A stretch of 24,014 nucleotides of DNA from a virus. The stretch lies in IMG/VR virus record IMGVR_UViG_3300030339_000238, positions 1-24,014 of that record; one strand, given 5' to 3'. Position 1 is the first letter of the stretch. Each line of letters starts with the position of its first letter. The translations under genes and the position numbers were made by a program. The notes beneath the pieces are model-generated. The model had not been told where the DNA came from. It was given only the letters and a program-made list of their open reading frames with translations, and did not search any database. Positions 145 to 11,172 of this stretch are shown in pieces.

Positions 145-453
145 TTATAAGGTGCGATAGTTGTATTGTTTGTTATAATTCCAATATACAATATGATATT
201 TTTGATTTCCTGTAGGCTCACGTTTGATTACAACTTTACCTTTAAAATTATCATTTTTTGCTTGATCTAGAAGTTGTTGACGTAATGTATCTTCATCAAA
301 TTTTACAAATGCGTCTATATTTTGTTTAGCTTTTTCAAGTTTTTGATTAATTTGTATCAAAATTTCTTCTTTTGCTTTTGAATTATCTTCTTGACCAAAC
401 CACTCATTAACTGTGTCATTATTATGCTGTTCAAACTTTTTTAAGTGTTTCAT
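145..453 (-). CDS. cassette A small protein, MKHLKKFE N-terminus
   Basis: This 102-residue protein has no fold I recognise. It begins MKHLKKFEQH, the N-terminal signature shared by the neighbouring cassette A genes and resembling the T4 capsid-targeting peptide. The middle (about 25-65) is charged and probably helical, and the C-terminus is aromatic (YWNYNKQYNYRTL) without the KYNL ending of its relatives. It is the last gene of the minus-strand run, 54 bases after the previous gene, and is followed by the terminator at 99-124. The start is the ATG at 453. Function is unknown; packaging in the head is only an inference from the N-terminus. Confidence 0.7.
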   Translation of the reverse strand: MKHLKKFEQHNNDTVNEWFGQEDNSKAKEEILIQINQKLEKAKQNIDAFVKFDEDTLRQQLLDQAKNDNFKGKVVIKREPTGNQKYHIVYWNYNKQYNYRTL

Positions 454-507
454 ATTGTTTTAAAATTATTTTTTATTATTATATATATTAATATTTTTAT
501 TCAATTT

Positions 508-957
508 TTATAAATTATATTTTCTTGCTACAACTCTTATATCATCTGGATTAAATATTTCTAAAACATCAAGAAATAGATTGCCATCTTGAACTAATAT
601 CCTAAGTGTTGGATTTTTTAAAAGTTTTTCTGTTTGTTTATCCTTATCCAAAACTCTTAAAAAATGACTAATAAATTGTTCAATATTATAGTAATGATCA
701 ATATTAAGTATATTTAACAATTCTTTATTTTTAGCAAAATCAAAAAATTTAATATCAAATGTTCTTTCACTTTTTGCACAATATTTTAAATCACATATTG
801 TAAATTTGTATTCCTCTATAATATAATAAAAATTATCTTCATATTTTGAATTATCATGTTTTATTGGTGTGCCATCATAATGTGATTCAGCATGTTTAAT
901 ATTATAGCGTGAATACTCATGTGATGTTTTATTAAATTTTTCAAATGTTTTAATCAT
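508..957 (-). CDS. cassette A small protein ending in KYNL
   Basis: This 149-residue protein is not recognised. It starts MIKTFEKFNK, sharing a 19-base stretch with the start of the upstream gene (MKTFEKFIE), and ends ARKYNL. The body is soluble-looking, rich in Tyr, Asp and Lys, with no membrane segment. Its ATG overlaps the TGA of the upstream gene by four bases (ATGA), which suggests translational coupling. The shared start joined to an unrelated body fits a modular, recombining cassette. Confidence 0.75.
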   Translation of the reverse strand: MIKTFEKFNKTSHEYSRYNIKHAESHYDGTPIKHDNSKYEDNFYYIIEEYKFTICDLKYCAKSERTFDIKFFDFAKNKELLNILNIDHYYNIEQFISHFLRVLDKDKQTEKLLKNPTLRILVQDGNLFLDVLEIFNPDDIRVVARKYNL

Positions 958-1277
958 AAATTATATTTATTTGATGATATTAATTCGTTTTTTAATTCTT
1001 CAAGATTATTTGATTGATATAAAACCGAATTCATGTTCATATTTGTAAAAAAATTTTCACCATTTGCATAATAATCTTCGAGTGTATTTGTTTCAGAATT
1101 ATATTTATAAATTGTTTCAGACCAATATCTTATATCTGGTTCATATGTTATTTCTGTCATTTCTAATATTTCATATGTGTTAAAATCTTTGTATTCATCG
1201 GAATTATCAAACCATAAAATATATCTTTTATTAATTAATATTTTTTCTTTTTCAATAAATTTTTCAAATGTTTTCAT
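954..1277 (-). CDS. cassette A small protein with close capsid-targeting-like N-terminus
   Basis: This 107-residue protein begins MKTFEKFIEKEK, the closest match in the window to the T4 capsid-targeting peptide MKTYQEFIAE (same K2, T3, aromatic 4, F7, I8). It ends SSNKYNL. The body is acidic and aromatic (IRYWSETIYKYNSETNTLEDYYANG) and unrecognised. It overlaps the upstream stop by one base (TAATG) and the downstream start by four. Cleavage near FIE or EKE by a prohead protease would be the prediction if the homology is real. Confidence 0.75.
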   Translation of the reverse strand: MKTFEKFIEKEKILINKRYILWFDNSDEYKDFNTYEILEMTEITYEPDIRYWSETIYKYNSETNTLEDYYANGENFFTNMNMNSVLYQSNNLEELKNELISSNKYNL

Positions 1278-1858
1278 TATTCAATTATTTTTAATTTAGC
1301 ACCAGATCGTATAATATCTTTGATACTATCGGTATTTAAATTTTCTTTAAATTTATCAGTCTTTTTATCTTTATCTTTTAATAACCAATTATTTCCAGAA
1401 TTTGATGTTTCATATACATAAGTGATATTATTATCAGTTAATTCAATTGTTTTTGCGGTTAATTTTTTGTAAAAATCTTCAACTTTACCTTTAATTGTAT
1501 AAATTTCAATAGGAGACCATTTATCATCTTTATAATATTGCAAAATTAAAAAATCAGGATTATCTAATATTGATTCATTCCTACTATAAAGAAAGAAAAA
1601 TTTCATATCTATATCTTTTTTCAAAAAATTTTCAATGTCAGTTGTAGATTCCATTTCGCCTTTTTTTAAATGGTCTTTAAATAATTGTTTATTAAAATTA
1701 GCATCATCATATAGATACTCAATAGTTTTATTTAAGTAATCACTATTAGATAGATGAATTATAAAAAAGTCACCTTTTTTATCATTGATACTATCTAATA
1801 GTCCATCGACGTCTGTTGTGATAGACTCTTTAATATATTCTAAATATTTTTTTATCAT
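1277..1858 (-). CDS. cassette A protein of unknown function, 193 aa
   Basis: It starts MIKKYLEYIKESI, with an I-K-E|S site at residues 9-12 that matches the [LI]-x-E cleavage rule of T4 prohead protease. The upstream neighbour also carries YIKESI, with similar codons. The body looks like a compact alpha/beta domain (FFIIHLSNSDYLNKTIEYL; MKFFFLYSRNESIL) but I cannot name it. Unlike most neighbours it ends KLKIIE rather than KYNL. Its start overlaps the upstream stop as ATGA. Confidence 0.75.
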   Translation of the reverse strand: MIKKYLEYIKESITTDVDGLLDSINDKKGDFFIIHLSNSDYLNKTIEYLYDDANFNKQLFKDHLKKGEMESTTDIENFLKKDIDMKFFFLYSRNESILDNPDFLILQYYKDDKWSPIEIYTIKGKVEDFYKKLTAKTIELTDNNITYVYETSNSGNNWLLKDKDKKTDKFKENLNTDSIKDIIRSGAKLKIIE

Positions 1859-2154
1859 AAATTGTATTTTTTTGTTATGATTTCTTCCGGTGCTGCTAAT
1901 CTAAATCTATTTGGTTCCCAATATCGTCTAACATTAACTAATTTTAATTGCTCAATTGGTTCACAATCATCAAATTTTTTTATATTTTCTATTTGATAAA
2001 TATTATTCATTTTTAAATATTTACTATAATTATAATCGGATATTGTTGAAGAATTATCAATACATATAACTATATCTCCAATTTGAAAATTTTTAGTATT
2101 TTCAAATTTGATAGATTCTTTAATGTATTGTGTATAAAGTTTTAAATGTTTCAT
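1855..2154 (-). CDS. cassette A protein, SH3-like small domain
   Basis: This 99-residue protein starts MKHLKLYTQYIKES, with an I-K-E|S potential prohead-protease site ending at residue 13, and ends KKYNL. Residues about 24-85 (FQIGDIVICIDNSS...NNIYQIENI...EPNRFRLA) follow the pattern GDxVxCIDNS-...-YxV-...-RF of small beta-barrel, SH3-like phage proteins. The next gene downstream has the same pattern, so the two are probably paralogues. Function is unknown. The ATG lies within a junction element. Confidence 0.75.
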   Translation of the reverse strand: MKHLKLYTQYIKESIKFENTKNFQIGDIVICIDNSSTISDYNYSKYLKMNNIYQIENIKKFDDCEPIEQLKLVNVRRYWEPNRFRLAAPEEIITKKYNL

Positions 2155-2167
2155 AAATTATATTTAT

Positions 2168-2182
2168 TTAGGTCTGTTTCAT
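2168..2182 (-). other. four-codon micro-ORF between duplicated junction elements
   Basis: Two junction elements lie 28 bases apart here (2151-2165 and 2179-2193). The ATG of the first to be transcribed opens a four-codon frame, MKQT-stop. It looks like the residue of a deleted cassette gene whose start and KYNL end have been brought together. Confidence 0.45.
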
Positions 2183-2445
2183 AAATTATATTTTTGAATA
2201 TTGTTTCTAATTTCTGATATAAATCTATCACAAGAAAATGTTCCAAAAGTTTCTCCAATTTTTCCTAATTTACTATTTACTTTGCAAACATAATAACCAT
2301 TTTTATTTTTGAATATTTTTTTCACTAAGTATCTCATATCTTTAGTTAAGCATGAGTCTTCATTATCTATACAAATAACATCATCACCTTCTTTGAATTT
2401 TGGTGTATCTTTTTCTGAACTTTCGTATTTTTTCAAGTATTTCAT
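2179..2445 (-). CDS. cassette A protein, SH3-like small domain, paralogue of neighbour
   Basis: This 88-residue protein starts MKYLKKYESS and ends IQKYNL. Residues about 17-75 (FKEGDDVICIDNEDSCLTKDMRYLVKKI...CDRF) repeat the GD-x-VICIDN...YxV...RF layout of the protein encoded at 1855-2154, so a local duplication followed by divergence is likely. No catalytic motif is seen. Its ATG overlaps the upstream TAA by one base. Confidence 0.75.
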   Translation of the reverse strand: MKYLKKYESSEKDTPKFKEGDDVICIDNEDSCLTKDMRYLVKKIFKNKNGYYVCKVNSKLGKIGETFGTFSCDRFISEIRNNIQKYNL

Positions 2446-2867
2446 TAATCCCGATTATAATTTTTTAATTTTTTAACTCTATCTTTAAATTTGACACCAC
2501 CTAAGACAGAAGTTGGTATTGTATTATGATATTGTAAAATTGACGATGTTATTATATTCACACTGGCTCCATATGTTTGTATCTCTGGATTAACCCATTC
2601 ATCATCTTGTAATACCCATACATTCTCTCTTGGATAGCAAGATATTATAAACGGATTTTCAGTAACTACTGATTTAACATAATGTCTATAATCAACAGTA
2701 TCAGCAAATGTCATTGCTCTTTCAGGATAAAGTATTAAATTATCATTTTTACTTTCACGAACTAAATCATAGTAATGCTCCATATTAGCATCATTTCCTT
2801 GAAGAAAAACAAAACATTGTTCTTTTTCCATTATATTTTCTGATTCAAATTTTTTTAAATATTTCAT
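2445..2867 (-). CDS. cassette A protein, possible ATPase-tail remnant
   Basis: This 140-residue protein starts MKYLKKFESENIMEKE; I-M-E at 12-14 could be a processing site, and M13 is a possible alternative start. The centre (ENPFIISCYPRENVWVL... and EIQTYGASVNIITSSIL) faintly recalls the last strand and the TYG-x-S-V-N-x-I segment of ABC/OLD-type phage and defence ATPases. There is no Walker A, so at most it is a C-terminal fragment. It ends KNYNRD, a variant of the KYNL tail. The ATPase link is a weak resemblance only. Confidence 0.7.
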   Translation of the reverse strand: MKYLKKFESENIMEKEQCFVFLQGNDANMEHYYDLVRESKNDNLILYPERAMTFADTVDYRHYVKSVVTENPFIISCYPRENVWVLQDDEWVNPEIQTYGASVNIITSSILQYHNTIPTSVLGGVKFKDRVKKLKNYNRD

Positions 2868-2913
2868 AAATTATATTTTTTTGATAATTTTTTTTTAAAG
2901 TTTCATGTTTCAT
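2845..2913 (-). pseudogene. remnant micro-ORF between two cassette A genes
   Basis: The stretch between junction elements at 2910-2924 and 2864-2878 opens with ATG and reads MKHETLKKNYQKN, then runs out of the KYNL frame into the next gene. Adding one A in either of two A-runs (9 and 7 long on the minus strand) would give a 16-residue peptide ending KKYNL. It is therefore probably a shrunken, frameshifted cassette member. Confidence 0.4.
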
Positions 2914-3257
2914 AAGTTATATTTAATTTTATTCTTTTTTAATTCAAATTCTTCAATTTCTTTTGGTGTTAATTTTCTTTCAATTGAATCAAATTTGTCT
3001 CTTGTGCCTAAAATAAAAAATTTTGCATCTTTATCATCTTCTAAAGGATTATGTACAATAATTTCAAATGTACATTCACGTCCAATATGATCTTCACTAT
3101 TTATATCAATAATTTTAGCATATTTAAATATGTATAATCTATTATTAAATTTATACATATCTAATCTTGAATTTTTAAATAATATATAATCACCTTCTTT
3201 ATAAGCATCGCGCCACTTTTCTTGATCGTATGCTTCAAATAATTTGATATGTTTCAT
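2910..3257 (-). CDS. cassette A protein, SH3-like, MKHIKLFE N-terminus
   Basis: This 115-residue protein starts MKHIKLFEAYDQEK and ends KIKYNL. An N-terminal beta segment (WRDAYKEGDYILFKNS) is followed by FEIIVHNP and a charged C-terminal helix (KLTPKEIEEFELKKNK), a layout I associate with hypothetical phage SH3-like proteins whose tail reads like R-x-A-T-P-E-E-I. The start and the 14 bases upstream are part of a 38-base sequence identical to that at the start of the gene at 3924. No enzymatic motif is seen. Confidence 0.75.
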   Translation of the reverse strand: MKHIKLFEAYDQEKWRDAYKEGDYILFKNSRLDMYKFNNRLYIFKYAKIIDINSEDHIGRECTFEIIVHNPLEDDKDAKFFILGTRDKFDSIERKLTPKEIEEFELKKNKIKYNL

Positions 3258-3271
3258 TACTTATATATTAA
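3234..3271 (-). repeat. 38-base exact repeat, copy 1 (5' leader plus first eight codons)
   Basis: This stretch is identical to 3901-3938. It covers 14 bases upstream of the ATG and the codons for MKHIKLFE. Identity that extends into non-coding leader points to recent duplication or recombination at gene starts, not to protein-level selection alone. The leader (TATATAAGTA before ATG) may be part of a start signal. Confidence 0.85.
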
Positions 3272-3411
3272 ATATTATATTTATGTACAGATAGTAGAAA
3301 TTCTGAATCTTTCATAAATTTACTAATAAAATCATCTTCTTTCATTATTACATTCCAACCAGAATGAAATTGAGTAAATATATAATCATCACTTTCTTTG
3401 TACCGTATTAT
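3268..3411 (-). pseudogene. 3' continuation of the preceding gene after an in-frame TGA
   Basis: After the TGA at 3412-3414 the same frame stays open for 47 codons: IIRYKESDDYIF at the start and LLSVHKYNI before the TAA at 3268-3270. It has no start of its own near the 5' end. The KYNI ending matches the KYNL tail of sibling genes, which shows that this segment was, or is, the true C-terminus of the gene at 3924. A TGG to TGA change would explain it; stop-codon readthrough is the alternative. Confidence 0.7.
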
Positions 3412-3924
3412 TCAACTGTCACCTTTTGCACTTGTTTTAATTTCTCCTTTTTTATTAACAATTAAAGTGTTTTCTTCAATAATTGTTTCTTTATCCATCA
3501 TTCTTACAATTTGTTTATCGTCAATTGGATTAAACATTTTATCCCAAATTGTATTTGTATTTTTTGTTATATCTAATTTTGGATTACCATCAATAGCAAC
3601 ATTAATAACGTTACTACTACCATATTTTTTATTAACTTTATTAGTTAATGATCTCATGTATAATGTATCACACAGTCCATCATCTTTAGCGTTTCTTATA
3701 AATTTTTCTAATTGTAAGTCACCAACAATAATATAGCCGAAGTTATCAACAGGATTTTCTGCAATAGAAACATATTTACCTGGTCCTATATTATTATTAT
3801 AAAATATAGATTTATTTGAATAACCTTTTTCTTTATTATAAATTTTTGCAAAATTAATTATACCATCATTTATAATTTTAGGAACTTCAGTAATATATTT
3901 TTCAAATAATTTGATATGTTTCAT
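3412..3924 (-). CDS. cassette A protein interrupted by an in-frame TGA
   Basis: As annotated to the first stop it has 170 residues. It begins MKHIKLFEKYITEV, with I-T-E|V (11-13) as a possible prohead-protease site. The body (IINFAKIYNKEKGYSNKSIFY; GPGKYVSIAENPVDNFGYIIVGDLQLEKFIRNAKDDG; YGSSNVINVAIDGNPKLDI) looks like a folded alpha/beta domain but is not recognised. It stops at KTSAKGDS-TGA, then the frame continues for 47 codons to a KYNI end, giving 217 sense codons in all. It is the first gene of the minus-strand run and lies divergent to the glycosyltransferase gene. Confidence 0.7.
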   Translation of the reverse strand: MKHIKLFEKYITEVPKIINDGIINFAKIYNKEKGYSNKSIFYNNNIGPGKYVSIAENPVDNFGYIIVGDLQLEKFIRNAKDDGLCDTLYMRSLTNKVNKKYGSSNVINVAIDGNPKLDITKNTNTIWDKMFNPIDDKQIVRMMDKETIIEENTLIVNKKGEIKTSAKGDS

Positions 3925-3938
3925 TACTTATATATTAA
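3901..3938 (-). repeat. 38-base exact repeat, copy 2
   Basis: This is the second copy of the leader-plus-start sequence at 3234-3271. It lies at the start of the first gene of cassette A, next to the divergent promoter region. Confidence 0.85.
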
Positions 3939-6177: not shown

Positions 6178-6210
6178 AATAAATTGTAAAAAATTATATA
6201 TAATTCTGAA

Positions 6211-6669
6211 ATGAAAATTAATGATTTTTGTAAATTTAATGAAAGCTCACACAATGAGGAATCTATGATAAATTATATGCTTATGCTTGGCTCTATATTA
6301 ATATGTCCTGGTGTTCTTCTTTTGAATGATTGTTATATTGTTTTTCATATTACTTCTGAGGTTTTTGTTTTAGATTTAATAACAACTATATCTGAACATA
6401 GAAGACTTGGTAATTGTTCAACTGCCCTTAAATTTTTATGTAAAAGTGCTGATGCTACTAACACTACTATTGAGCTATTAGTTGATTCACAACTATCTTG
6501 TAATACGTCTTCTTTACAAGAATTTATTCCAAGTTCTTGTAGAACTATTGCTTTTATGCATGCTTCTAAAGGACCTAAAATGAATAATAATCTACTTCAT
6601 AAATTATATTCTAAATATGGCTTTGTGAATATGTATGATAATTATATGATAAGGAAACCTAATTTGTGA
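6211..6669 (+). CDS. GNAT-like acetyltransferase with cassette A-type N-terminus
   Basis: In this 152-residue protein, residues 51-95 (VFVLDLITTISEHRRLGNCSTALKFLCK...IELLVD) follow GNAT strand 4, the acetyl-CoA loop R-R-x-G-x-(G/C)-S/T-A, and helix 3. LYSKYGFVNMYDNYMIRKP (132-150) is the usual C-terminal strand 6-7 segment. The loop has Cys (C69) where Gly or Ala is normal, so activity is uncertain. The N-terminus MKINDFCKFNESS matches the cassette A signature although the gene is on the other strand and outside the cassette. That suggests a GNAT enzyme delivered with the same signal. The acceptor is unknown. It ends directly against the convergent gene at 6670. Confidence 0.65.
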   Translation: MKINDFCKFNESSHNEESMINYMLMLGSILICPGVLLLNDCYIVFHITSEVFVLDLITTISEHRRLGNCSTALKFLCKSADATNTTIELLVDSQLSCNTSSLQEFIPSSCRTIAFMHASKGPKMNNNLLHKLYSKYGFVNMYDNYMIRKPNL

Positions 6670-7666: not shown

Positions 7667-7684
7667 TCAAAGATTAATCTTTGA
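7667..7684 (-). mobile_element. palindrome at the tnpB 3' end, candidate element end or guide-RNA hairpin
   Basis: TCAAAGATTAATCTTTGA is an 18-base perfect palindrome covering the last codons and stop of tnpB, 20 bases before the GTG start of the next gene. Hairpins near the right end are usual for IS200/IS605 elements, and the omega RNA ends there. The exact element borders could not be fixed because there is no target duplication to see. Confidence 0.45.
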
Positions 7685-8881
7685 TGGCCAAATCGCTTGA
7701 CCTCTACACCTTTTAGTTTGGATAATTTCTTTTCCCTTATCTGGTGCTACTTTCCTTAATATATTTAAAGCTCCATTCAAATCAGCATTAATCTTTATCC
7801 CTTTTGAACTCACAAATAAACCTCTTTTAACTCTTTTACCAACGTAATTTTCATGTTTACTTAATGACTCCAAATCCAATGCTGAACATTTACTAGTATA
7901 ACTTTCTTCGTTCTGAATAAAATTTATACCATCTAACTTGCATTTATACTCTAACATATTTAATAATGATCCGTGTGGTATATTTACAAAGTTTTGGTTA
8001 TGTCTTTTACCAATATTTATTTCTTGTTTCCATTCTTTATTATATCCAACAACCAAATTAGATATTTGATTATTCACGCAATAATTGACTATAAACCTGG
8101 AACTTTTGTGGAGATAGTCTGTAATTTTATTATTTCGTTTTAATGTTAGATTATTTAACCTATTTGAACTATATTTATTATGATTTTTTATTAATTTTGA
8201 TTGTATTTTAGTTTTCTTTTTATTATAATATTGATTTATTGATTTTACTGGTTTACCATTTATAATTAATGATTTGTTATTTTTTGTATCGTAACAAGTC
8301 ATTAAATTATTTAGACCAAGGTCTATAGATAAATAATTATCATTAATTATTTTTTCTTTTTCTTGCTTTTCATAAACTATTTCAATTACATAACAAGATG
8401 ATTGAGGAATAATTCGCACTTGTTTTAATGATTCTACATTTGTTTTTATAGGTTCGATTAATGATTTTTTAGGAAAATGTATATATTCATTTTTTAATTT
8501 AGCTTGACTAATAGTAAATATTACAGGAAATCTACCTGTAATTTTATCTTTATAATGCGGAAATTGAGGACAACCGTTTAATGATTTTTTATCTTTTTTC
8601 CATTTAGATAACAACTTGAAATATGATATTAAAGATTTATCTATTAACATAAGAGTTTGTTGTGACGATGATATTGGCAAATTTCTATAATCAGGTTGGT
8701 CATTTAATTTAAATTCTCTTTCTAAATCATTATATCTAATAAATTTACCAGTTTCTTCTTTATGCTTTCTTATATAATATAACGCAGAATTATAAAGATT
8801 TTTAGATAAAAAACAAATATTATCTAATGATTTCCATCTTTTATCTGATTTTTTAATAATATGTCGTTCTACTATTTTCAT
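7667..8881 (-). CDS. tnpB: TnpB-type RNA-guided nuclease / IS200-IS605 family OrfB
   Basis: This 404-residue protein has the TnpB layout: an N-terminal wedge/recognition part (KNLYNSALYYIRKH, GCPQFPHYK) and RuvC motifs I SIDLGLNNL (D187), II FIQNEESYTSKCSALD (E325/E326) and III NADLNGALNIL (D367). All three acidic positions are present, so cleavage activity is plausible. The zinc ribbon normally between motifs II and III (two CxxC pairs) is absent; only C332 remains, within SKHENYVGKRVKRGLF. That feature is shared, to my knowledge, by a subgroup of these proteins. No tnpA is present. Any guide RNA should overlap the 3' end and run toward 7640. The start is ATG at 8881. Confidence 0.88.
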   Translation of the reverse strand: MKIVERHIIKKSDKRWKSLDNICFLSKNLYNSALYYIRKHKEETGKFIRYNDLEREFKLNDQPDYRNLPISSSQQTLMLIDKSLISYFKLLSKWKKDKKSLNGCPQFPHYKDKITGRFPVIFTISQAKLKNEYIHFPKKSLIEPIKTNVESLKQVRIIPQSSCYVIEIVYEKQEKEKIINDNYLSIDLGLNNLMTCYDTKNNKSLIINGKPVKSINQYYNKKKTKIQSKLIKNHNKYSSNRLNNLTLKRNNKITDYLHKSSRFIVNYCVNNQISNLVVGYNKEWKQEINIGKRHNQNFVNIPHGSLLNMLEYKCKLDGINFIQNEESYTSKCSALDLESLSKHENYVGKRVKRGLFVSSKGIKINADLNGALNILRKVAPDKGKEIIQTKRCRGQAIWPSKINL

Positions 8882-8925: not shown

Positions 8926-9174
8926 TTATATTTGACATATTTTGTTTAATTTTTTTAATCTAATTTCTTTTTCGTTGTAGAATATTTCAAAAAAATCTAT
9001 ATAGTTAAAAGTGTGAAATTTATTACTATGATTACCATTGTTAGAAAAAGCTGTAATATTATAAGGTATAATATTTTTATGATAGGTATAATGTGTTTTA
9101 TATATTTCATTTGTGATAAACATATCTGAAAAATTGTTTTTACATATATAGTTTTTTACTTCTATTTTTGACAT
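8926..9174 (-). CDS. cassette B small protein
   Basis: This 82-residue protein starts MSKIEVKNYIC and ends IRLKKLNKICQI, the cassette B tail. The body is aromatic (Tyr, Phe, His, Asn) with no recognisable motif. It is the last intact cassette B gene before the TnpB insertion. Its end overlaps a new ATG that opens only MSNIT-stop (8921-8938), possibly the broken start of a gene once present downstream. Its start overlaps the upstream gene by 13 bases. Confidence 0.65.
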   Translation of the reverse strand: MSKIEVKNYICKNNFSDMFITNEIYKTHYTYHKNIIPYNITAFSNNGNHSNKFHTFNYIDFFEIFYNEKEIRLKKLNKICQI

Positions 9175-9515
9175 ATTATATTTAGTTTTTTTAATTTTTG
9201 TTTTCTTTGTAGTAATATTTTAGCATTATCAGTAAAATCATTAAGAATAATAATAATTTCATTAATATCATTAATTTCATTATTATAGAAGGTTTTTGTT
9301 ATTGGAGTTGGATTATAATGGGCACTACTTATATTATTTTCTAATATTCTGAAGATATCTATTTTAAAGTATTTTCGAATTTTTTTAAAATAACCAAAAT
9401 TGTTGTTTTCAATTTTGATTATTGGATAACCATTTATTTTAGAATAATGTATATCAGTTATTTCTATTCCCAATTTTAATAAAAAATCTGTAGATTCTGT
9501 TATGAATTCTGACAT
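9162..9515 (-). CDS. cassette B small protein
   Basis: This 117-residue protein starts MSEFITEST and ends RKQKLKKLNIICQK. The middle has beta-like stretches (INGYPIIKIENNNFGYF; IDIFRILENN) and an acidic, isoleucine-rich segment (NEINDINEIIIILNDF). It is unrecognised. Its start overlaps the upstream stop region by 16 bases, with ATA-TGT-CAG (ICQ) of one frame giving ATG-TCA (MS) in the other, as at the other cassette B junctions. Confidence 0.65.
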   Translation of the reverse strand: MSEFITESTDFLLKLGIEITDIHYSKINGYPIIKIENNNFGYFKKIRKYFKIDIFRILENNISSAHYNPTPITKTFYNNEINDINEIIIILNDFTDNAKILLQRKQKLKKLNIICQK

Positions 9516-9922
9516 ATTTTGTTTAATCTTTTTAATTTTTCTTTTCTTAATTCTTTTAATTTGAATAATGAAAAATCACCATTTATATAATCTGCAGAAA
9601 ATGTTACATTTATTTTATATTGATTAAAGGTATAGTCTATAGGAAATATTCCTCCAATAAAAATTCCATTATAATTTATATCTTGTTTATAATTTCTAAT
9701 AGAGGAATAATATGAAGATTCAATCCAATTATTTAATGCTATATAATTGTTATTTGAAGTTTCTGCTGATATTTTTATACATTTCTGTGGTGATGGCATA
9801 ACATAATTATTATGATTTCCAAACATTGTAATTGTATTAATTTCAATATCAATATCCTTTATATCAAATACTATATTATTAATTTTTATACTTAAATTTA
9901 GATTTTTAATATTTTCTAACAT
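9500..9922 (-). CDS. cassette B protein, possibly tail-tube-like beta fold
   Basis: This 140-residue protein ends LKELRKEKLKRLNKICQNS, the fullest form of the cassette B tail. Residues about 85-118 (YNGIFIGGIFPIDYTFNQY, KINVTFSADYINGDF) recall the strand pair of small phage tube-like proteins, where G-x-F/Y-P-x-x is followed by x-V-T-F-S-x-D-Y. The N-terminal half is beta-rich with a MFGNHNNYVMPSPQ segment. If correct it is a structural protein, which fits its position near the baseplate block. The evidence is pattern-level only. Confidence 0.65.
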   Translation of the reverse strand: MLENIKNLNLSIKINNIVFDIKDIDIEINTITMFGNHNNYVMPSPQKCIKISAETSNNNYIALNNWIESSYYSSIRNYKQDINYNGIFIGGIFPIDYTFNQYKINVTFSADYINGDFSLFKLKELRKEKLKRLNKICQNS

Positions 9923-10350
9923 ATAGTTTTAATTTCTAACAATTTTTTATAATAATTTTCACTTAAAAATTCTTTACCTTCTAAAATATGATTTTTATAT
10001 TCTTCTGTAGCTTCTAATTCATTAACTGTTGTCCATTCATCATTTGCAACATAAACTACACATTCTTTATTGTTAATACGATGACTTTCACGACGATAAT
10101 GCTTAGGCGCACCCTCATATTTATCCAATTTTAATATATCATCTTGATTAAGCTCATAAATAATTCCTTCAACGTGAGAAGAATTATCTTTAATAATGTT
10201 AGCAAATCCTATATTTGGATTTTTTTGAGATTTTTTATTGATAATAAATCTATAACCTTTGAGTGATCCTTTTTCTTTTGATGTGAAATTTACACCACGT
10301 TCGATCATTCTTGATGAATCTAGGTTACTCCCATACGCGAAATAATTCAT
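9916..10350 (-). CDS. gamma-glutamylcyclotransferase-like (AIG2/GGCT fold) protein
   Basis: This 144-residue protein has the full family layout: YFAYGSNL (3-10) binding loop, GFANI (48-52), V-E-G-I-I-Y-E-L (60-67), and LDKYEGAPKHYRR (75-87), where E79 is the expected catalytic glutamate. Members remove the gamma-glutamyl group from glutamyl-amines as 5-oxoproline. Phage homologues are common but mostly of unknown substrate. It sits inside cassette B and overlaps both neighbours (4 and 7 bases). Its end, KKLLEIKTIC, is a shortened form of the cassette tail. Confidence 0.85.
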   Translation of the reverse strand: MNYFAYGSNLDSSRMIERGVNFTSKEKGSLKGYRFIINKKSQKNPNIGFANIIKDNSSHVEGIIYELNQDDILKLDKYEGAPKHYRRESHRINNKECVVYVANDEWTTVNELEATEEYKNHILEGKEFLSENYYKKLLEIKTIC

Positions 10351-10613
10351 AACTTTTCTAGTTTTTTTAGTTTTTCTTTCCTTAATTCTTTTAAATATTT
10401 TATTCCTGCCTCTAATTCAACCCATCTGGCATGATTTTCTTCTATTTGATAAATATAAAATATTGATTTGTATTCATTTGATTTAATATGTTCAATTGTT
10501 GGATTATCAAAATCATAAACAGCTAAAAAATTAGAGTTAATCATTCCTTCATTTGGAATACTTACTATTTTTACGTTTTTAAAATTACTTACTTTATTAA
10601 TTAAATTTGACAT
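10347..10613 (-). CDS. cassette B small protein
   Basis: I place the start at the ATG at 10613, giving 88 residues (MSNLINKV). The frame is open back to 10679, but the extra 22 residues are low-complexity and the MS- start matches its neighbours. The body (VKIVSIPNEGMINSNFLAVYDF, EYKSIFYIYQIEENHARWVELEAG) is probably a small alpha/beta domain and is not recognised. It ends YLKELRKEKLKKLEKL, a clear cassette B tail, and overlaps the next start as ATGA. Confidence 0.65.
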   Translation of the reverse strand: MSNLINKVSNFKNVKIVSIPNEGMINSNFLAVYDFDNPTIEHIKSNEYKSIFYIYQIEENHARWVELEAGIKYLKELRKEKLKKLEKL

Positions 10614-10715
10614 TATCAATAAATATTTTTTATTTTTATATAAACTTTTATAATAAATGTTTAAATAAAATAACAGCAAATTGGTGATTATATGGTAGAT
10701 AAATTTTGAAATATT

Positions 10716-10997
10716 TTAAAAATTTTCCGCCTCTTTTTTTGCTGCATCTTCTCTTGCCTCTATTGCCTTTCTATGAGCGAGCGCATCTCTTTTTAATTGT
10801 TTTGCAGTCTGTATAATTATTTCCAAATCTTGTCTTAATCTAATAGATGCGACTTTATAATTTTTTTTATATAGTTTATAATAATTTAATCTACAATTGT
10901 TCAATCTATCAATTATGTCTTCAATTGGGTTTATTTCATCATTATAATCATCTTCATTGGTGGATGAAATTTTTCCACTTCTTTTAGTTTGTTCCAT
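10716..10997 (-). CDS. small coiled-coil protein, possibly histone H1-like
   Basis: This 93-residue protein has an acidic N-terminus (12-27), then two long helices: IEDIIDRLNNCRLNYYKLYKKNYKVASIRLRQDLEIII and AKQLKRDALAHRKAIEAREDAAKKEA. The turn YKLYKKNYKVASIRLRQDL aligns by eye with the F-x-K-F-Y-x-K-x-N-K-A-A-G-T-R-x-R-K-x-L of Bacteroidota Hc1/H1-like proteins, which bind DNA. Several phages carry such genes. The classic Lys/Ala-rich tail is missing, so a plain coiled-coil structural protein is also possible. It overlaps the upstream gene end by 14 bases and lacks the cassette B tail. Confidence 0.6.
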   Translation of the reverse strand: MEQTKRSGKISSTNEDDYNDEINPIEDIIDRLNNCRLNYYKLYKKNYKVASIRLRQDLEIIIQTAKQLKRDALAHRKAIEAREDAAKKEAENF

Positions 10998-11172
10998 ATA
11001 AATGTTCTAATTTTTTCTTTCTTAATTTTCTTAATTTTTTTATTTTATCTTGTAAACTATTTTGAATAACAATGTTTAAGTTTATAGATTGTACAGTATT
11101 TTTTGGTTGTATATAAATATCAACATTTATAATTTTATATTTATAATAGATAAAAATTATAAAATTTTTCAA
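10984..11172 (-). CDS. cassette B very small protein with non-ATG start
   Basis: This 62-residue frame starts at a TTG (11172), six bases after the heptose-kinase stop; no ATG exists in the frame. It begins with a hydrophobic stretch (NFIIFIYYKYKIINVDIYI) and ends DKIKKLRKLRKKKLEHLYGTN, matching the lysine-rich cassette B tail. The last 14 bases overlap the start of the next gene. The tail match is the main reason to call it real. Confidence 0.45.
   Translation of the reverse strand: MKNFIIFIYYKYKIINVDIYIQPKNTVQSINLNIVIQNSLQDKIKKLRKLRKKKLEHLYGTN

Follow-up and report, generated by a model that had tools for sequence, protein, structure and literature searches.

The locus at positions 145 to 3924 raises the question of why nine consecutive genes with different bodies should encode proteins that start in a common way. 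The window, that is, the whole stretch of DNA analysed here, is a complete IMG/VR virus record of 24,014 bp and represents a genome fragment. An earlier note on this DNA had described nine consecutive minus-strand genes with a common N-terminus, and we confirmed this observation, as all nine ORFs fit the pattern M(I)K-x-[LIFY]-x-x-[FY] (Table 1). A leader profile of 11 positions was trained on genes of the window, of its relatives and of MaF61, with T4 left out. The nine cassette genes scored 7.9 to 21.1 and every other window gene scored 0.5 or less, and 0.3 matches per window were expected from residue-shuffled N-termini.

The bodies behind these N-termini had been called unrelated, which agreed with our comparison within the cassette, where blastp gave nine separate families for the nine genes. 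No significant match was found for the nine bodies in Pfam and PHROGs, nor for two of them in PDB sequence searches, and the AlphaFold model of the 193-aa protein, the most widely conserved of the cassette members, had a mean pLDDT of 52. An in-frame TGA cuts leader gene 1 short; the related locus L231 has an intact homologue of 219 aa, which ends in NKYNI. Where the earlier note spoke of I-x-E in several members, [LI]xE by residue 14 is found in only five of the nine (the genes at 1277, 1855, 2445, 2910 and 3412).

Table 1. Leader genes and proposed promoter elements in the window; a slash marks the end of the [LI]xE site
Feature	Positions	Strand	N-terminus	Product and remarks	Profile score
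Leader gene 1	3412..3924	-	MKHIKLFEKYITE/V		15.9
Leader gene 2	2910..3257	-	MKHIKLFE/AYDQ	115 aa; C-terminus KYNL	17.4
Leader gene 3	2445..2867	-	MKYLKKFESENIME/K	140 aa; body conserved in relatives	18.9
Leader gene 4	2179..2445	-	MKYLKKYE	88 aa; C-terminus KYNL; no [LI]xE site	16.7
Leader gene 5	1855..2154	-	MKHLKLYTQYIKE/S		15.6
Leader gene 6	1277..1858	-	MIKKYLEYIKE/S	193 aa	9.1
Leader gene 7	954..1277	-	MKTFEKFIEKE	107 aa; C-terminus KYNL	10.5
Leader gene 8	508..957	-	MIKTFEKFN	149 aa; C-terminus KYNL	7.9
Leader gene 9	145..453	-	MKHLKKFE	102 aa	21.1
Weak tenth candidate	6211..6669	+	MKINDFCKFNESS	152 aa; ATATATA at 6196-6202	-0.5 only
ATATATA, proposed late promoter element of gene 3412-3924	3929..3935	-			
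ATATATA, proposed late promoter element of gene 2910-3257	3262..3268	-			
ATATATATA, proposed late promoter element of gene 145-453	480..488	-			

At the other end of the proteins, a C-terminal [KR][FY]N[LI] was seen on five of the nine. Across the window's clade (window 508-3257, G001, G002, G006 and G013), [KR][FY]N[LIV] closes 67 of 131 leader genes versus 27 of 936 others, and it is absent in W01. An origin of KYNL as a mere overlap with the next start codon was rejected, as 43 of 94 cases have no same-strand start within 15 bp.

The largest phages known so far come from the lineage to which the window belongs, judged from its UvsX, which shares 60% identity with the UvsX of LR756501 (735 kb) and 49–52% with those of genomes of 634–642 kb. 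Its other genes include a DnaB-type helicase, ribonucleotide reductase and T4-like baseplate genes, and no head gene lies within the 24,014 bp. Mahaphage is the clade name in the paper reporting genomes of such sizes, and the hosts predicted there are Bacteroidetes (PMC7162821), in line with the proposal of the earlier note that this is probably a Bacteroidota phage.

Leader-bearing genes are abundant in this lineage. At one common profile threshold they numbered, in three whole genomes, 89 of 1018 in LR756501 (shuffled expectation 4.0), 73 of 920 in LR756504 (5.4) and 43 of 682 in LR756500 (2.9), and, in clade contigs, 52 of 395 in G001 (3.2), 22 of 187 in G002 (0.8) and 23 of 138 in G013 (0.9). 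The leader share is 6–17% of the genes in most related genomes and long contigs, versus about 1–2% in five control phages, namely PTm1 (3/301), crAss001 (1/106), T4 (5/269), MaF61 (4/189; itself part of the training set) and Lak-A2. The expansion was not found in Lak-A2 (7/509), which has been assigned to the same Mahaphage clade (PMC7162821). The contig G016 holds only two leader genes among 55, so the density varies along genomes. Additional motifs were enriched on the leader proteins of single genomes: DPYGEE as a second motif in W01 (24/89 vs 68/929), a C-terminal DDFGF in W05 (9/43 vs 2/639) and an acidic (D/E)WDDE in W02 (7/73 vs 1/847). Our literature search, which took in the smaller part of the subscription papers, turned up no earlier account of leaders like these in huge phages.

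T4 was used to test the profile on a genome from beyond its training set. When the 269 T4 ORFs were ranked by the profile, gp61.1 (13.8), IPIII (10.7), IPII (9.2) and IPI (8.6) came first, followed by a short ORF at 24279-24428 (6.6) without an annotated counterpart. A simple count puts the probability that three named proteins all rank among the first four of 269 at about 1e-6. Residues 4 and 7 were a requirement for the seeds, which makes the profile partly circular; this T4 ranking and the promoter-only test given below are free of that circularity. The statement that IPI-III and Alt begin with MKTYQEFIAE was right for IPII and IPIII, but IPI begins with MKTFKEFTST, and for Alt it found no support, as this protein is absent from the first 14 T4 ORFs in the ranking. 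Mutations in T4 IPIII have assigned residues 4 and 7 to targeting and residues 8 and 10 to processing (PMC9026906).

The leaders studied here have about 10–19 residues and, like those of IPI, IPII and IPIII, are short N-terminal stretches with a hydrophobic residue 4 and an aromatic residue 7, often followed by a candidate [ILV]xE site. As with these gp21-processed proteins, the bodies behind the conserved leader are unrelated and variable, and the phage lineage has an S77 protease and a T4-type coat protein. However, T4 has three or four such proteins, whereas the megaphage relatives have tens per genome, with a second, longer leader register (site at residue 13), many members lacking a clear site, extra lineage-specific motifs and enzyme bodies. 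Membership in the T4 IPI family was ruled out, because the mature domain (PF11634) had no match in eight related records, T4 itself being matched. From these sequence features, the leader probably acts in the manner of the capsid-targeting sequence of T4; a candidate processing site is seen in only about half of the members, which limits their assignment to the T4 class.

The top-ranking T4 protein, gp61.1, is a hypothetical protein of 54 aa (NC_000866, 18966-19130) that joins a T4-type leader to a copy of the N-terminus of mature gp23; we found no published role for it. It aligns ungapped to gp23 residues 57-93 (E=6e-9) and places its leader Glu10 on gp23 Glu65, a known cleavage site (PMC9026906). 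Proteins built in the same way, with a leader and then sequence resembling the mature coat-protein N-arm, were found in four relatives (G002:24112, G001:62681, W01:730457 and W04:93266; best E-values 1e-13 to 8e-9), and in the G002 protein the leader Glu falls on the coat-protein Glu or one residue off, depending on the coat protein compared. The window itself has no such mimic. As these mimics carry the leader, the leader is tied to head assembly in the window's lineage. For T4 as a model phage, the capsid-targeting reading predicts that gp61.1 is processed and located inside the head.

The leader genes also have a promoter element in common with the head genes. Among genes with an intergenic start, ATATATA occurs within 60 nt upstream of 148 of 165 leader genes versus 435 of 1450 others (30%; p=7e-52), while TAnnTTTG, which we take to be a host-type promoter, is depleted before leader genes (8/165 vs 240/1450). 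Of 72 coat-protein genes taken from viral contigs, 67 have ATATATA upstream as well, and it also precedes most inspected head genes in W01, W02 and G013, and tail operons; none was found before the uvsX, dnaB and nrdA homologues. We infer that ATATATA is the late promoter of the window's lineage. Of 63 hydrophobic/aromatic residue pairs tested, the pair 4/7 was the strongest (22% vs 6%, p=1e-21) when genes were chosen by promoter only and those with ATATATA were compared with those without it. The T4-type late promoter TATAAATA was rejected as a candidate, as it showed no enrichment upstream of leader genes. In the leader genes of W01, W02, G001 and G013, ATATATA stands at two favoured distances from the ATG, about -27 and about -12; with the element at about -12, late mRNAs would be almost leaderless.

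The leader could be an assembly or localisation tag for some other late structure, such as the tail, the baseplate, a membrane or a replication compartment, and not for the head interior. The promoter element upstream of tail operons and the presence of two lysozymes with a hydrophobic segment among the leader proteins would fit this. Nevertheless, the profile picks out exactly the head internal proteins of T4, the coat N-arm mimics bear the leader, and residues 4 and 7 are the targeting residues of T4, and we regard this alternative as unlikely.

Targeting to the head interior is also consistent with the protease and coat-protein sites of the relatives. Matches to the gp21-type (S77) protease were found in all five huge genomes and in two clade contigs, within an ORF of about 600–800 aa that adjoins the portal and coat genes in W01 and W02; most of these matches are under Pfam's curated cut-off, so synteny bears part of the argument. 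In the relatives, cleavage of the coat protein after Glu is predicted as well, as the propeptide ends in [IML]NE/N in 72 of 72 coat proteins, at the position of the T4 gp23 cleavage point. The candidate site [ILVM]xE[ASGNQD] lies at residues 5-20 in 40–59% of leader proteins versus 8–13% of others, which overstates the independent evidence since the profile itself favours Glu at residues 8 and 10; further into the leader proteins, the site was not enriched.

Large sets of head proteins with propeptides are known from phiKZ and SPN3US, whose inner-body proteins are ejected after cleavage by a protease related to S77 (PMC9026906). The set proposed here would share these features. Their sites are S/A-x-E, however, and P3 of the coat proteins here is I, M or L in 72 of 72, so the cleavage specificity of the phiKZ-type inner-body class does not fit; no common short leader of this kind was described for them.

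The cassette had been proposed to be hypervariable, and this was borne out by 13 related loci, in which its content varies beside recurring neighbour genes. Leaders are also swapped between bodies. At L231, the 193-aa body has the leader MKHLKLYTQYIKES, which in the window fronts another body, that of leader gene 5, in identical form. Identity of the DNA between the two loci sets in about 15 nt upstream of the ATG and breaks off at about codon 14. As leaders recombine as DNA, the N-terminus might be a by-product of a conserved DNA junction (a start-codon context, a translation or promoter element, or a recombination site), the peptide having no role; a repeated DNA stretch, AAATATAATTTATGAAACA, across gene junctions and the frequent position of ATATATA just about 12 nt before the ATG would agree with it. 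On the other hand, codon choice at residues 4, 7 and 8 is mostly that of the genome as a whole, which indicates a constraint on the peptide, with deviations at K2 and a few other cells. The same peptide pattern is encoded by other DNA in genomes of 24–32% GC and in T4, and in eight orthologues of the 193-aa protein with swapped leaders Y8, I9 and E11 are invariant and the remaining leader differs. This explanation thus seems decidedly improbable to us. Shared descent from one duplicated ancestor, with the N-terminus retained and the bodies diverged past recognition, deserves hardly any credence: some bodies are related (clusters of 12 and 10 members) and a loose '[FY]KxGDxVI'-like stretch is common to those of 1855, 2179 and 2910, but the 347 leader proteins fall into 264 clusters with 228 singletons, the bodies have differing known folds, and one identical leader fronts two unrelated bodies.

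The domains found on leader proteins were methyltransferase, GNAT, HD, NUDIX, NADAR, NT5C, ART-PolyVal, AAA_28, lysozyme and transglycosylase, although some of these matches may belong to false members with low scores. In the cases checked, the enzyme domain begins directly behind the leader (at residue 13 for NT5C and at residue 17 for AAA_28), and complete domains in this position favour the leader's being an addition. The two leader-bearing lysozymes, and enzymes of NT5C and AAA_28 type with no obvious reason for injection, are counter-cases. T4 IPI is a precedent for counter-defence (PMC3012670), and by analogy the cargo may have such a role.

The capsid-targeting reading of the earlier note is supported by the out-of-sample ranking of T4, by the promoter-only recovery of residues 4 and 7 and by the promoter shared with head genes; further support comes from the prohead protease and coat propeptide sites of the relatives, the leader-bearing N-arm mimics and the hypervariable, leader-swapping cassette. 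We consider it likely that the leader of the nine proteins is an exchangeable capsid-targeting signal like that of the T4 internal proteins, and that their mature cargo is packaged and delivered into a Bacteroidota host. We infer packaging, cleavage, ejection and cargo function as follows. The leader genes would be expressed late in infection, alongside the head genes, and residues 4 (hydrophobic) and 7 (aromatic) would dock the cargo on the scaffold core of the growing prohead. The S77 prohead protease would then cut the leader off those members with [ILMV]-x-E at about residues 8-14. The mature cargo would be packed together with the DNA, enter the next Bacteroidota host cell and act there on host defence or metabolism.

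With less assurance, we lean towards a wider reading, in which one swappable leader delivers 40–90 head-packaged proteins per genome in the largest known phages, whole enzymes included, and T4 gp61.1 belongs to the class but has been overlooked. It suggests that megaphages reach the host carrying a large, swappable set of helper proteins. If true, this delivery set would be about as large as the effector repertoire of a bacterial secretion system, and it would account for 6–17% of the mostly unannotated genes of giant phages. It would also provide a sequence rule that predicts virion cargo and make the response of giant phages to host defence at entry testable.

Two other features of the window were observed. 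The gene at 7667-8881 on the minus strand, amid phage genes, matches the PHROG transposase family phrog_506 (E=3e-49). Another group of small genes (window 8926-11172, minus strand) ends in a basic C-terminal tail, [IL]RKxKLxx[IL], for example LKELRKEKLKRLNKICQ. Counting the clade contigs as well as the window, 48 genes have this tail, none of them with the leader, and it was not found in W01, W02 and W05.
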